Shown in pieces: positions 5,668-12,670 of a stretch of 35,182 nucleotides of DNA. A program made the translations under genes and the position numbers. The notes beneath the pieces were generated by a model. The model was not told where the DNA came from, did not search any database, and saw only the letters and a program-made list of their open reading frames with translations. Position 1 is the first letter of the stretch. Each line of letters starts with the position of its first letter. The stretch comes from a virus: the IMG/VR virus record IMGVR_UViG_3300020194_000003, positions 1 through 35,182 of that record; one strand, written 5' to 3'.

Positions 5668-5877
5668 CTAGTCATTAAATCTTATATTATAACATCTAAT
5701 ACAATACCAATCACAACTATCAGCTCTATTCTGATTAGTAGGTATGTATGCTATTAGATTATCTTGTAAATATTTTTTATCACAGTCAGCACATTCATAA
5801 AAATTAGAATGGGATATCTTCTGCTGGATCTTCTGTTCTAGCGTTTGTTTGCGATTGAACTTTAGAACTTGAGCCAT
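5668..5877 (-). CDS. Zinc-ribbon protein, 69 aa
   Basis: Two CxxC pairs (ECADC and YCIRC), about 27 residues apart, indicate a zinc ribbon. I choose the ATG at 5877. A TTG four codons upstream is also open. Its first 25 codons overlap the tail of SSB in another frame. As the last gene of the early operon it may be a small DNA- or RNA-binding or host-interaction protein. Function unknown. Confidence 0.65.
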   Translation of the reverse strand: MAQVLKFNRKQTLEQKIQQKISHSNFYECADCDKKYLQDNLIAYIPTNQNRADSCDWYCIRCYNIRFND

Positions 5878-6214
5878 CTTTGCCCCCAATCATTTTTAGA
5901 ATACCTTTGAATCTAGGTATAATAATTTCTGTGGTGTATTTAGTTTCACCATTTTGATCATACTGTCTAGTTTCTATTTGACCTTCAATGTATAGAGTAG
6001 TGCCTTTCTTAACATATGTTTCAATAGTCTTAGCAATGTTAGGATCCCAACATACAACTCTATGCCATTGTGTTTTTTCTTGCCACTCACCAGATTTATT
6101 TTTAAATCTTTCTGAAGTAGCTAGAGAGAAACCAGCAAACTTTTCTTCTCTGGTAGAAATTTTTACTTCTGGATCGCTACCAACACGACCTAGTAATATT
6201 ACTTTATTAATCAT
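5804..6214 (-). CDS. ssb: Single-stranded DNA-binding protein (SSB)
   Basis: A typical bacterial-type SSB of 136 residues. An OB-fold domain spans about residues 1-105 (INKVILLGRVGSDPE at the start, WHRVVCWD in the middle, LYIEGQIETRQY near its end), then a Gln/Ser linker and the acidic tail EDPAEDIPF. That tail normally docks host recombination and replication proteins, which fits a phage with no polymerase of its own. A GGAGG sits five bases before the ATG, and the start overlaps the upstream stop. It works with the exonuclease and annealing protein in the same operon. Confidence 0.96.
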   Translation of the reverse strand: MINKVILLGRVGSDPEVKISTREEKFAGFSLATSERFKNKSGEWQEKTQWHRVVCWDPNIAKTIETYVKKGTTLYIEGQIETRQYDQNGETKYTTEIIIPRFKGILKMIGGKDGSSSKVQSQTNARTEDPAEDIPF

Positions 6215-7245: not shown

Positions 7246-7558
7246 TGTACCTCCATACTTTGGTGTTACTACCGAAACTATTTTTTCTTCTATCACCAGA
7301 ATCAATAATATATTCTAGTAATTTTAGTTCAGTAAATCTTGGTCTAATTGATAGTATACTTTCTGATAATATTTCTGCTACTTCTTCAGGTGTAGCTCCA
7401 TAATTACCTTTTCGTTTTACTACATTTAAACATTCTGTTCGCAAGTTAGTTGATCGTGAATCAATTTTTCTTGCTGCTTCTTTACTAGTTGAGCTTTCCT
7501 TCCAACCAGCTGTCAGTGGATATTTCTTCTCCAAAGTGTAACGCGATGTCATGTTCAT
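7232..7558 (-). CDS. Winged-helix-like DNA-binding protein, 108 aa
   Basis: A central segment (GATPEEVAEILSESILSIRPRFTEL) has the shape of a winged-helix recognition unit in which SIRPRFTEL is the recognition helix, followed by a basic wing (GDRRKNSFGSNTKVWRY). Such proteins are frequent next to phage recombination genes. It overlaps the nuclease end by 74 bases and the annealing-protein start by 14. A GGGGA sits before the chosen start. It may regulate the operon or load replication factors at an origin. Confidence 0.7.
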   Translation of the reverse strand: MNMTSRYTLEKKYPLTAGWKESSTSKEAARKIDSRSTNLRTECLNVVKRKGNYGATPEEVAEILSESILSIRPRFTELKLLEYIIDSGDRRKNSFGSNTKVWRYNDER

Positions 7559-8135
7559 TTTTTATTTTCCCCATTAGATCAAAGTCAATGTATTCTGGTG
7601 GTGTAATATTATTCATTACATGAAACCAAAATAAGTGACACGCTATTTCTAGTTTTTGTAGAAAAGGCTTATCCCTTTCTATTGTATATACTTCATAGTT
7701 ATGATTACCATAAAGTACAGATAACACAGCTTTAGAAAAACCTGTGACCATCATATAATGCTGCACCTGGGCATAGTATCTTTCAATTAATTTATCTTTT
7801 TTACTAAATGCATTTGTATGTTTAGCTTCAAAGACTTTGCCTTTTGCAACACCATCTAGACTACCATAAATATAATCATATTCAGGGTGTGTCCAAACAC
7901 TATTTATATTAACAACCCTTTCTCCAGTAATTTCTTGATACCAGCGTCTGTTGAACTCCTCGGTAAATACTCCAAGTTGAACTGGCAATACACCTGAAAG
8001 ATCTTCTCTTTCGATCTTTCCAGTTTTCTCAAGCCAAAGGTCTTTCCATTCGCCATTTGCAAGACGCACTGCATCAGTACCTCCAATGCCTGTTGGTCTT
8101 TTGGGTGGTGTAAGTTTTCCATTTCCTTTTCCCAT
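7485..8135 (-). CDS. YqaJ-type recombination exonuclease, 216 aa
   Basis: The PD-(D/E)XK nuclease signature of the YqaJ/lambda-exo group is clear: GIGGTDA near residue 16, GSLDG (D94), FEAK (E103, K105) and YYAQVQHYMMVTG (Q123, Q125). It should digest 5' ends of double-stranded DNA to leave single strands for the annealing protein encoded two genes downstream. The ATG follows the previous stop directly, with AGGAG ten bases before it. The length is normal for the family. Confidence 0.9.
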   Translation of the reverse strand: MGKGNGKLTPPKRPTGIGGTDAVRLANGEWKDLWLEKTGKIEREDLSGVLPVQLGVFTEEFNRRWYQEITGERVVNINSVWTHPEYDYIYGSLDGVAKGKVFEAKHTNAFSKKDKLIERYYAQVQHYMMVTGFSKAVLSVLYGNHNYEVYTIERDKPFLQKLEIACHLFWFHVMNNITPPEYIDFDLMGKIKNEHDIALHFGEEISTDSWLEGKLN

Positions 8136-8804: not shown

Positions 8805-9013
8805 TTCTTCCCCCATTCATTAAGATGACAATTAGCACAATACCAATATGTGCCATTGCCATACACTAAATCAACACCTTTGCATTTACAGCTTTTCGGT
8901 TGATTTTGTTCTTTATATATAATTTTAGATTGTGGTGTTAATGTGTCGAAGTATGTACCGACTAAGATTTTATTTTTTGTTGATCTTTTTTTTCTTTTAA
9001 TTTTATTGTACAT
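8801..9013 (-). CDS. Zinc-ribbon-like protein, 70 aa
   Basis: The C-terminal half has CKC and, 14 residues later, CANC, which looks like a compact zinc ribbon. The N-terminal part is very basic (NKIKRKKRSTKNK). The only ATG is at 9013 and overlaps the XRE gene by 52 bases, so the true start could be a later non-ATG codon. Possible nucleic-acid-binding protein of the regulator operon. Confidence 0.6.
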   Translation of the reverse strand: MYNKIKRKKRSTKNKILVGTYFDTLTPQSKIIYKEQNQPKSCKCKGVDLVYGNGTYWYCANCHLNEWGKK

Positions 9014-9207
9014 TCAAGTGCATTGGCCCAACAACAAAATAGAAATCCACTCGGTTTCCTTATACCGACTTCCCATTTTGATACTAAACCTCTAGCACAA
9101 CCAATCATTTCATCAAGTCTTGATTGTGATAATCCTAGTTTTTTTCTCTGTTCTACGAACTGAGGTATTACACTATCAAAAAATATTCCTAATTGTTTAT
9201 TAGACAT
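8962..9207 (-). CDS. XRE/Cro-type helix-turn-helix regulator, 81 aa
   Basis: Residues about 18-62 form an XRE-type helix-turn-helix: RKKLGLSQSRLDEMIG, then RGLVSKWEVGIRKPS, a standard recognition-helix and Trp pattern. It is the first gene of the early operon and sits directly under a good sigma-70-like promoter with almost no leader, which suggests autoregulation like that of small phage regulators. No integrase is present, so it more likely times early expression than maintains lysogeny. Confidence 0.85.
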   Translation of the reverse strand: MSNKQLGIFFDSVIPQFVEQRKKLGLSQSRLDEMIGCARGLVSKWEVGIRKPSGFLFCCWANALECTIKLKEKKDQQKIKS

Positions 9208-9212
9208 AGGTT

Positions 9213-9242
9213 TTAATATCTGAATATTATTCGGTTTGTCAA
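9213..9242 (-). promoter_or_regulatory. Sigma-70-like promoter of the regulator operon (leaderless)
   Basis: On the minus strand a perfect TTGACA (9242-9237) is followed after 18 bases by TATTAA (9218-9213). The ATG of the XRE gene begins only five bases after the -10, so transcription would start at or next to the start codon and the message would be leaderless. No ribosome site is seen, in line with this. Confidence 0.7.
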
Positions 9243-9249
9243 GTTACGC

Positions 9250-9291
9250 TGGGGAATACGTTAAGCTCTAACGCTTATTATATATTCCCCA
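9250..9291. repeat. Nested hairpin A of the folded region
   Basis: TGGGGAATA (9250-9258) pairs with TATTCCCCA (9283-9291), nine perfect pairs. Inside it CGTTA (9259-9263) pairs with TAACG (9269-9273). It lies eight bases from the -35 box of the regulator promoter and could also serve as an operator. Confidence 0.7.
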
Positions 9292-9293
9292 TA

Positions 9294-9349
9294 ACCCTCG
9301 TGTCAGATTTTAAATTACAGCTAACTGACGTATCCTCAGGGTGTTTTTT
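9294..9349 (+). terminator. Hairpin B with T-run on the plus strand
   Basis: ACCCT (9294-9298) pairs with AGGGT (9338-9342), with GTCAG (9302-9306) and CTGAC (9325-9329) inside. G plus six T follow at 9343-9349. It reads as an intrinsic terminator for plus-strand transcription, though no plus-strand gene precedes it. Stems are short, so function is uncertain. Confidence 0.45.
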
Positions 9350-9352
9350 AAT

Positions 9353-9411
9353 TGGGAGTAGAGCTACTAATATATATAGGAATTAATCCCAGCGTTTCGC
9401 AGCTACTCCCA
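9353..9411. repeat. Hairpin C of the folded region, with an alternative partner
   Basis: TGGGAGTAG (9353-9361) is the exact complement of CTACTCCCA (9403-9411). A second TCCCA at 9387-9391 could pair with the same TGGGA, and a GCG-TTT-CGC mini-hairpin (9392-9400) lies between, so two exclusive folds are possible. Confidence 0.65.
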
Positions 9412-9413
9412 TA

Positions 9414-9452
9414 AGAACACAGTAAAACATTCAGGAGGAAAAACTGTGTTCT
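9414..9452. repeat. Hairpin D with AGGAGG in its loop
   Basis: AGAACACAGT (9414-9423) pairs perfectly with ACTGTGTTCT (9443-9452), ten pairs. The 19-base loop contains AGGAGG (9433-9438) on the plus strand, a full anti-Shine-Dalgarno match, but no start codon follows in reach. Confidence 0.7.
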
Positions 9453-9460
9453 AACCATTG

Positions 9461-9493
9461 GGGGAGGCGTGAGCTAAGCTGACTAGCCTCCCT
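9461..9493. repeat. Hairpin E of the folded region
   Basis: GGGAGGC (9462-9468) pairs with GCCTCCC (9486-9492), with one more G-U pair outside if read as plus-strand RNA. The loop holds AGCTAAGCT. Confidence 0.65.
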
Positions 9494-9532
9494 AATTCTA
9501 CTATATACTTTCTTTGTAGGCAGTATAATACC

Positions 9533-9579
9533 TCTGAGTAATAGTTCATGCGCTTACGATCCCATAACGTTATCTCAGA
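9533..9579. repeat. Hairpin F and a perfect palindrome
   Basis: TCTGAG (9533-9538) pairs with CTCAGA (9574-9579). Directly inside the right arm is the perfect palindrome ATAACGTTAT (9564-9573). AGTAAT (9537-9542) could instead pair with ATTACT (9579-9584). Confidence 0.55.
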
Positions 9580-9608
9580 TTACTAGTTCAGTAGAATGTT
9601 CTTTTTGT

Positions 9609-9651
9609 GTGGCACTTTGGCGTATACTTCTAAACTGTACCAAGTAACCAC
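9609..9651. repeat. Composite hairpin G
   Basis: GTGG (9609-9612) pairs with CCAC (9648-9651), and further in CTT-t-GG (9615-9620) pairs with CCAAG (9640-9644), separated by a small internal loop. Confidence 0.45.
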
Positions 9652-9658
9652 TAATGTG

Positions 9659-9706
9659 TACCTTCAAACAAGCCCACGATCACTTATCTTGCTTCTTCAC
9701 TAGGTA
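9659..9706. repeat. Composite hairpin H
   Basis: TACCT (9659-9663) pairs with AGGTA (9702-9706) and inside it CAAG (9669-9672) pairs with CTTG (9688-9691). Short stems, weaker on its own than in the series. Confidence 0.4.
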
Positions 9707-9723
9707 ATTTAATATATTACTAT

Positions 9724-9732
9724 ATTATAACA
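9724..9732 (-). promoter_or_regulatory. Extended -10 promoter element facing the folded region
   Basis: The minus strand reads TGTTATAAT, an exact TGn plus TATAAT extended -10. No clear -35 is seen. Transcription would start near 9717 and run through hairpins H to A toward the regulator operon. Confidence 0.45.
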
Positions 9733-9756
9733 CCTCTCGGGTTGTTAGGTACACTA

Positions 9757-9801
9757 ACTTACTAATATGTTTTAACTGTCGACTTGAATCTATTAGTAAG
9801 T
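9757..9801. repeat. Hairpin at the end of the upstream early operon
   Basis: ACTTACTAATA (9757-9767) is the exact complement of TATTAGTAAGT (9791-9801), eleven pairs, starting four bases after the stop of the 119-aa gene. The loop includes the palindrome GTCGAC. There is no T-run, so it may protect or process the message rather than terminate it. Confidence 0.65.
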
Positions 9802-9805
9802 GTTC

Positions 9806-10165
9806 TTATACATCACAGAATATAACATCAAAACCCCAGTGGGTTTCTAAGTACCAATCCTGTATGTTTTTACCAAAGTTGTATGATTGTGGGTGACTAC
9901 CTAATGAATAGGCAACACCCCAATCAAATGGGCCTGATTCCCAAATAACTTGTATGTTATTTGTATTACTACCAGCCATTTCATCTTTGGTATGTGTAAA
10001 TTTATTTGGATATGATTGAGGTTTTGATACTTCAATATCAGGTTTCATTCCATATGCTTTGCAATGTTTAACTAAACTTTTATACATTATTTCAGCTGCT
10101 TCTTTTTTATCAATCTTTTTAGTATTAAAATCAGGCAGCCATGCTGGTAATAATTGTTCACTCAT
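9806..10165 (-). CDS. Hypothetical early protein, 119 aa
   Basis: I choose ATG 10165, eight bases after a GGAGG and inside an eight-base overlap with the previous gene. The ATG at 10180 has no such site. The N-terminal part is basic and helical and the C terminus is Trp-rich (WESGPFDWG, DWYLETHWGFDVIF), which looks like a compact beta domain. I do not recognise the family. It is the last gene before the folded region. Confidence 0.7.
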   Translation of the reverse strand: MSEQLLPAWLPDFNTKKIDKKEAAEIMYKSLVKHCKAYGMKPDIEVSKPQSYPNKFTHTKDEMAGSNTNNIQVIWESGPFDWGVAYSLGSHPQSYNFGKNIQDWYLETHWGFDVIFCDV

Positions 10166-10364
10166 TTGTTGTTCCTCCAAATTCTTTTTCTATTTCGGTT
10201 TTTAATTCTTGATTTTCACTTTCAAGTTTTAAAATACGATCATTTAATTTGTTGATATCACTCATGTTTTTTATTACTTGTTTACCTATAGTCGTAATAA
10301 AAGAGTTTTGCATATCAACCATTTTATCATTTAGTATTTTCATTGTTTGTTCATGTTCACTCAT
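10158..10364 (-). CDS. Coiled-coil early protein, 68 aa
   Basis: The start overlaps the upstream stop (ATGA) and has GGAGG four bases before it. The second half (SDINKLNDRILKLESENQEL) has clear heptads, so a dimeric or trimeric coiled coil is likely. No known family. Confidence 0.75.
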   Translation of the reverse strand: MSEHEQTMKILNDKMVDMQNSFITTIGKQVIKNMSDINKLNDRILKLESENQELKTEIEKEFGGTTNE

Positions 10365-11218: not shown

Positions 11219-11246
11219 CGCGAGCCGTAGGCTCGCGAATTTTTTT
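11219..11246 (+). terminator. Strong intrinsic terminator on the plus strand (partly bidirectional)
   Basis: CGCGAGCC (11219-11226) and GGCTCGCG (11230-11237) form a perfect eight-pair stem with a GTA loop, followed by AA and seven T. In the minus direction the stem is followed by TTTCTATT, so it may also stop the transcript of the 206-aa gene. Upstream, at 11156-11170, a small TCCAG/CTGGA hairpin lies in the leader of the next operon. Confidence 0.85.
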
Positions 11247-12072: not shown

Positions 12073-12152
12073 ATATATATCCTCCTTATCTTTATTATTA
12101 TTTATTATATTCTTATTCTTAATTCTTTATTTTTATTCTTTTATTTTCTTTA
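12073..12152 (+). other. 80-base tract without G on the plus strand
   Basis: The tract is T-rich with scattered A and C and contains repeated TTATT and TTCTTA motifs. It could be an easily melted element, a bent segment or an unstructured RNA leader. The open frame that crosses it looks hydrophobic only because it is T-rich. Confidence 0.6.
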
Positions 12153-12243
12153 GCCCAGATCGAAGCCCTTTAGGGTGCAGACCTTGGCTGCACTTTAGCG
12201 AGAGCTGGATTAGCTCCATATTGTCACACTGTGTTGATTATGC

Positions 12244-12271
12244 TTGACATGATTTTATCAATGATTACAAT
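12244..12271 (+). promoter_or_regulatory. Main promoter of the late arm
   Basis: A perfect TTGACA (12244-12249) and TACAAT (12266-12271) with 16 bases between. The predicted start near 12278 is about 12 bases before the small-terminase ATG, so the leader is very short. Confidence 0.7.
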
Positions 12272-12289
12272 TATCCAACGATAGCGAGT

Positions 12290-12670
12290 ATGACGGATAA
12301 TACGGAATTAACAGATAAACAGAAGGCTCTTGTCGATACCATCGTATCAACAGGTTGTAGTATAGTTGAAGCAGCAGAAAAGGCTGGATATTCAACAAAA
12401 GTCAGTAGAGAATCAGCTAGGGTAAGTGCTTCTCGTACATTACGACTTCCAAAAGTACAGAGATACATGATGGAATGTGTGTCAAGAACGATAGGTCTAG
12501 GTGCTGTCACCGCAAGTAATAAGTTAGTACAACTTAGTAACAATGCTAAATCAGAGTACGTACAACTAGAAGCAAGTAAGGATATACTAGATAGAGTTGG
12601 GTTACGTACACCAGATAGAGTTAATCACCAAGTAGTCGGAGATATAAAGGTTAGTATCGATCTTAGCTAG
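12290..12670 (+). CDS. terS: Terminase small subunit, 126 aa
   Basis: The N-terminal half has the pattern of small terminases: LTDKQKALVDTIVSTGCS, then EAAEKAGYS as the helix-turn-helix, an array of small residues and LPKVQRYM. The C-terminal part should be the oligomerising domain. It would recognise phage DNA and start packaging with the large subunit encoded from 14398. It is separated from the large subunit by seven or eight small genes, which is common in marine phages. Ribosome site is weak (GCGAG). Confidence 0.85.
   Translation: MTDNTELTDKQKALVDTIVSTGCSIVEAAEKAGYSTKVSRESARVSASRTLRLPKVQRYMMECVSRTIGLGAVTASNKLVQLSNNAKSEYVQLEASKDILDRVGLRTPDRVNHQVVGDIKVSIDLS

Follow-up and report, generated by a model that had tools for sequence, protein, structure and literature searches.

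GOLLD and ROOL, which form long gene-free structured blocks in phages, are single large RNAs of fixed architecture, and both assemble into homo-oligomers, as seen by cryo-EM (PMC12286853). The manA RNA (RF01745), a multi-stem RNA behind a terminal closing stem, has been classed as cis-regulatory and placed mostly in possible 5′ UTRs (Weinberg 2010, PMC2864571), and its Rfam entry carries the same class. Phage tRNA arrays, such as that of S-CREM1, consist of tandem RNA units closed by terminal stems and running in one direction. Among small RNAs, phage pseudo-ToxI is an RNA antidote that neutralises a host defence protein by mimicry (PMC3475682), RNA anti-CRISPRs are small phage RNAs that counter host defence by mimicry (PMC10651486), and abiF RNA counters the AbiF toxin as an RNA antitoxin (PMC12373285).

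The window, i.e. the whole stretch of 35,182 nt analysed here (IMG/VR record IMGVR_UViG_3300020194_000003), carries at 9208-9805 a block that resembles GOLLD and ROOL in being long, gene-free and structured. However, it consists of short modules, each independent of the next, rather than of a single large RNA, and these modules are present, absent or reordered among close relatives. The initial annotation had proposed one large ornate RNA of the GOLLD/ROOL type, seeing no match to either by eye; Rfam likewise gave no family at gathering in the window and none at E ≤ 10 in the block, and the independent coming and going of the units speaks against that proposal. An apparently divergent manA is a module of sister arrays, on the same strand and in marine phages, but the window itself has none, the sister matches score below gathering, and the literature places manA mostly in possible 5′ UTRs rather than in an exchangeable array (PMC2864571). 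As in the S-CREM1 tRNA array, which includes a manA, the units are tandem, terminal-stem-closed and in one direction; unlike there, they are non-tRNA and turn over between near-identical phages, with no tRNA gene in the window (ARAGORN) or in the array loci checked. Pseudo-ToxI, RNA anti-CRISPRs and abiF RNA are similar in being small RNAs, and a counter-defence role for the window modules would follow by analogy; in Rfam there is no sequence relation, and no toxin or defence gene adjoins the array. On balance, we favour the explanation that the block is a leftward-read, hypervariable array of about nine exchangeable small structured RNAs, with predicted transcription and function. The anatomy of this array is well supported.

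Between the genes at 9806-10180 and 8962-9207, no ORF of at least 40 aa was found on either strand, as the initial annotation had stated. Stems were counted as perfect Watson-Crick, non-overlapping pairings with a span up to 110 nt. The block holds seven such stems of 7-11 bp (mean of dinucleotide shuffles 2.5; 0/200 reached seven), six of which have at least 8 bp (shuffle mean 0.9; 0/200 reached six) and two at least 10 bp, compared with a mean of 0.96 and a maximum of 4 stems of at least 8 bp in the other 598-nt segments of the record. Thus, the hairpin density described earlier is indeed unusual, and the count of at least nine inverted repeats is reached when the imperfect stems of M3 and M8 are added to the seven perfect ones; as a set the repeats exceed shuffles, but several of the longest-range ones are chance matches. 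The MFE z-score of the block was -3.6 on the plus strand and -4.2 on the minus strand (0/100 shuffles for each). The extent first assigned to the block holds for the array, except that the last ∼40 nt (9208-9245) are promoter-like and lie outside it. The features of the locus, in minus-strand order, are as follows:

9806-10180, minus strand: gene of a 124-aa protein, family unassigned; closes the operon that precedes the array
9757-9801, minus strand: M1, 11-bp perfect closing stem ACTTACTAATA/TATTAGTAAGT; also in L263, L135, L020, L171 and L247
9656-9754, minus strand: M2, closing stem GTGTACCT/AGGTACAC; missing from L263, where M1 meets M3 via TTAGTG
9609-9651, minus strand: M3, imperfect stem GTGGTTACTTGG/CCAAAGTGCCAC
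9495-9597, minus strand: M4, pseudoknotted RNA family: P1 (closing stem), P2 (variable hairpin), P3 (hairpin) and P4
9462-9492, minus strand: M5 slot, GGGAG...CTCCC then CCAATGG; core different in nearly all relatives
9415-9451, minus strand: M6, 10-bp stem AGAACACAGT/ACTGTGTTCT
9353-9411, minus strand: M7, conserved core CTGYGAAACGCTGGG...TATATATTAGTAGCT; closing stems unrelated among relatives
9294-9342, minus strand: M8, core GCTGTAATTTAA; different closing stem in L117 and L168
9251-9290, minus strand: M9, GGGGAATA/TATTCCCC with inner hairpin TAAGC-GTTAGA-GCTTA
9215-9242, minus strand: promoter-like TTGACA-16-GATATT with small palindrome GAATAATATTC; starts the HTH-regulator operon, not the array
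8962-9207, minus strand: HTH (Cro/Xre-type) regulator gene, PF01381, downstream of the array; anchor for collecting relatives
7485-8135, minus strand: RecE/YqaJ-like recombination exonuclease, in the operon downstream of the array
5804-6214, minus strand: single-strand DNA-binding protein (SSB), in the same operon as the RecE/YqaJ-like exonuclease

On the minus strand the order is hence M1-M2-M3-M4-M5-M6-M7-M8-M9, then TTGACA, then the HTH gene, and TTGACA precedes the HTH gene in most array-bearing relatives too. The place of the 124-aa gene is taken by other genes in relatives, and the downstream operon codes for one further exonuclease besides the RecE/YqaJ-like one. No copies of the modules were found elsewhere in the window, and distant matches in the loci of relatives looked coding. 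Read on the plus strand, M6 (9415-9451) shows a perfect AGGAGG with a tiny frame, GTG-TTC-TAA, behind it, a probable chance occurrence. Palindromes lie at the HTH promoter, GAATAATATTC in the window and CTTGTAT...ATGTACAAG in L236 and its kin (L236, L237, L238); these are likely operators for autoregulation.

As the initial annotation had recommended, homologous regions were collected, using the HTH protein as anchor in IMG/VR. From about 266 loci, 93 distinct upstream blocks were obtained, most of them 18 to ∼650 nt long; a few longer ones are coding or truncated and were set aside. These blocks are strings of hairpin-bounded units of ∼30-110 nt, which recur in different subsets and orders: M1-M3-M4-M5′-M6-M9 in L263, M1-M2-M3-M4-M9 in L171, M1-M2-M4-M5′-M9′ in L135, M4-M9 in L035 and M4-M5′-M7-M8-M9 in L156, and among the units scored L247 has M1-M2 only. 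The closest comparison is between the window and L263, which are 97.4% identical upstream and 98.7% downstream over 700 nt; in L263, M2 and M7+M8 are absent, and the cores of M4 and M5 are replaced. The junctions of this pair overlap by 6-7 nt (TTAGTG, TTATGGG). Across 20 relatives, 25 of the 39 distinct breakpoint positions are no more than 8 nt away from a module edge, where 13.6 would be expected (binomial P 0.0002, an optimistic value because the 93 blocks are kin), and those away from edges mostly exchange the inner hairpin P2 of M4.

L285, which was found by the M7 pattern alone, has an array of this type too, its modules differently ordered. It stands before another pair of genes, with the HTH gene ∼1.2 kb beyond, so that the array is not tied to the HTH promoter. 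In several lineages a gap of 18-19 nt stands in place of the array, which is hence not essential. In the array-free L066-L078 and L178-L190, a ∼288-aa gene ends 19 nt before the HTH gene, and the TTGACA box was not seen. Between the RNA modules of L139 and L285 lies a 51-aa ORF (MEWNVNFKLKRK...) with a plausible ribosome-binding site; since it sits within arrays, the site would also take up tiny protein genes.

The initial annotation had also suggested looking for compensating base changes in relatives, and M4 is the module where these are strongest. M4 occurs in 26 distinct copies, in a long and a short form, and the window has a copy with long P2. P2 is a variable hairpin with its loop around UAGCU, and P4 is a pseudoknot of the P3 loop with a downstream GUAUA. 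The covariation test covers the 19 short-form copies, in which 93.1% of cells are paired. Eight pairs are changed on both sides, compared with 3.0 in shuffles (0/500 reached eight), and the covariation score is 0.157 versus 0.064 in shuffles (0/500); when the structures were slid by 1-3 columns, only 0 or 1 both-side pairs were left. P1 changes from A-U to G-C, and G-C, C-G and A-U all occur at P2 pairs. The U.G wobble of P3, read on the minus strand, is present in 19/19 copies, and P4 is paired in 19/19 with one swap from C-G to A-U (L122). Covariation above both shuffled and slid controls thus supports M4 as a new structured RNA family. ToxI-type RNAs are pseudoknots, like M4.

A covariance model, R1, was built from the short-form set. 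It matches the window copy at 9491-9599 with 80.5 bits (E 8.8e-14) and finds M4 in the arrays of many relatives and also in L285. In L023, it matches a sequence-different homologue, ATTCCTAAT...ATTAGGAAT (E 0.0028), in which a pseudoknot GATATA/TATATC is seen by eye.

Among the modules, strong covariation was seen only in M4. The M7 core CTGYGAAACGCTGGG...TATATATTAGTAGCT is kept under the closing stems TGGGAGTAG, AAGTAAATAG and GGGAAGTAG, which are replaced with compensation in few sequences. For M8, the stem states in the alignment used were 1 compensated versus 10 broken, and M1, M3, M6 and M9 show almost no variation among relatives. A pairing of the M7 loop (CGCTGGG) with the M9 tail (CCCCAGCG) was considered and rejected, as M9 is often present where M7 is missing, and L123 shows the reverse.

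The folding energies favour the minus strand of the window. In 39 non-redundant blocks, the mean z-score was -3.34 for the sense strand (window minus) and -2.77 for the antisense strand, and the sense strand had the lower value in 29/39 blocks (Wilcoxon P 0.002, again optimistic for related blocks). Mismatch counts in stems, with G.T 16 versus A.C 13 overall and 16 versus 8 in stems of at least 9 bp, are not decisive as a strand test. For its own module, the known manA RNA fixes the strand. From the initial annotation, the idea of structured phage RNA is therefore retained, on the grounds of M4 covariation, manA in sister arrays and the better minus-strand fold, and that of a single large RNA is dropped.

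The relatives were scanned permissively with Rfam, and manA (gathering score 55.2 bits) matched at full length in L191, L199, L193, L142, L125, L202, L141, L198 and L127. The matches in these podophage arrays reach 30-42 bits (E 8.6e-8 to 4e-4), below that gathering score, and they are always on the HTH-sense strand. In L145, L147, L150 and L152 as well, a core UGACUGAAUAA...GUAAGGU can be read, together with the 3′ hairpin. In the M4-bearing cases the usual order is M4, M5 slot, manA, TTGACA, HTH, and each phage record has one convincing copy, within the array. Hence the module next to the regulator in sister arrays is probably a divergent manA RNA, albeit below the Rfam cut-off. For manA, the window gave no match at gathering, the stretch 9100-9900 none at E ≤ 10 and the window record (G000) none at E ≤ 1.

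Above the cut-off, manA was found in 3 of the 9 cyanophages searched and nowhere else. In the Synechococcus phage S-CREM1 (OP535465, L271 9745-10643), the order is tRNA-Leu, manA, tRNA-Asn, abiF, tRNA-Gly: tRNA-Leu ends 1-2 nt before manA, tRNA-Asn begins at the last base of manA, an orphan abiF RNA follows 100 nt further on, and wcaG lies upstream, within the same tRNA cluster. In S-SSM7 (L281/L284) tRNA-Gly begins at the last base of manA, and in P-SSM2 manA stands between regA (33 nt before it) and purL (16 nt after it). Because manA abuts tRNAs in S-CREM1 and S-SSM7, it can belong to an RNA array as one of its units, and this arrangement suggests an array unit rather than a riboswitch leader. 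manA thereby gains a new context, an exchangeable RNA row in podophages and a tRNA neighbour in two cyanophages, and the riboswitch assumption merits retesting.

A cis-acting role would make the modules aptamers or stability elements of a leader or 3′ UTR controlling the flanking operons, either as riboswitches of the manA kind arrayed ahead of the regulator gene or as a tail that protects the 3′ end of the upstream mRNA. The cis-regulatory class of manA in Rfam and in PMC2864571 is consistent with this, and the array always runs in the sense direction, usually directly before the HTH gene, with no TTGACA in between in the L191 group. However, in the window and most array-bearing relatives the TTGACA box separates the array from the gene, the L285 array precedes different genes, the HTH gene stays while module content changes freely, and the manA 3′ end of S-CREM1 and S-SSM7 abuts a tRNA and leads no gene. 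We consider a cis role unlikely. Gain and loss of modules, the short direct repeats at junctions (TTAGTG, TTATGGG) and the weak strand signal in mismatch counts would also suit a DNA-level feature without RNA function, such as ssDNA or cruciform palindromes, mobile hairpins (REP, PATE, attC-like) or a recombination hotspot. This we judge improbable, given that the modules are not multi-copy in the genome and have no fixed target or end sequence, that conserved cores carry a pseudoknot and a U.G wobble, that a known RNA family is among the modules, and that the fold is biased towards the sense strand.

An origin of replication was the main alternative of the initial annotation, and a gene-free, structured block between early operons could be an origin or a packaging signal. 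However, no DnaA box is present in the block, with 1 in the whole window where 7 are expected by chance; iterons and iterated or tandem repeats were not found in the block; the changes in GC skew, near 6 kb and 12 kb, follow gene direction and lie outside the block; and related phages do without the block altogether. We thus regard this reading as highly improbable. Several known element types were also rejected. A CRISPR or TIGR array does not fit, with no repeat family and no tandem array in the block; attC-like and REP-like readings fail for want of a repeat family and of module copies elsewhere (attC boxes were judged by eye only); and a type III toxin-antitoxin RNA is disfavoured by the single pseudoknot module, the absence of a tandem repeat and of a defence-gene model in the neighbours.

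For the favoured array of exchangeable RNAs, we propose the following course. With one early operon ending ahead of it and the HTH-regulator promoter following it, the array would most likely be read leftward, as the final part of the upstream transcript; read-through is assumed because no terminator-like site was found within the array. A terminal stem would close each module, making its folding independent of the neighbours. Since each module has its own closing stem, processing into separate short stable RNAs would be possible, and modules could be added or removed without disturbing the next. Modules may be gained, lost and reordered between co-circulating phages via recombination at linker microhomologies of 6-8 nt, and the RecE-like exonuclease and SSB may drive this shuffling by microhomology exchange. 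By analogy with the RNA systems above, the modules would most likely act in trans on host factors, as RNA antidotes, decoys or regulators; such a role in host conflict is suggested by the fast turnover at near-identical flanks, the tiny ORFs and the unlike genes at the site. A bolder version, which we hold as doubtful, would see a tRNA-free island of interchangeable structured-RNA cassettes with dozens of new families, an arsenal against host defence in which manA is one weapon and no riboswitch. Should the modules prove to be counter-defence RNAs, they would together form the RNA counterpart of variable anti-defence gene islands. This intergenic gap of marine phages, relatives of pelagiphages, is a place to collect new RNA families, which can be dated by presence and absence and tested module by module.

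Pelagibacter phage Hodr has the portal protein nearest to that of the window (58% over 91%); the tube protein is nearest to those of Hodr and Polarivirus skadi. Against isolate phages, neither the window block (blastn) nor the HTH protein (tblastn) gave a match, and in species-level bacterial genomes the HTH protein had one weak, unrelated-looking match only. The isolates Hodr and Skadi-8 gave no match to M4 or manA, and an array like that of the window was rejected for both. Hodr (L089) has one large nested inverted repeat instead: it is very long, TTTATCCTCCTTTGG...CCAAAGGAGGATAAA, lies at ∼12150-12370 between divergent operons and bears little resemblance to the modular arrays. Among leftward genes of the window, a short GC-rich hairpin at 11219-11237, with 8 pairs (7 of them G-C) and T-runs on both sides, is likely a bidirectional terminator.
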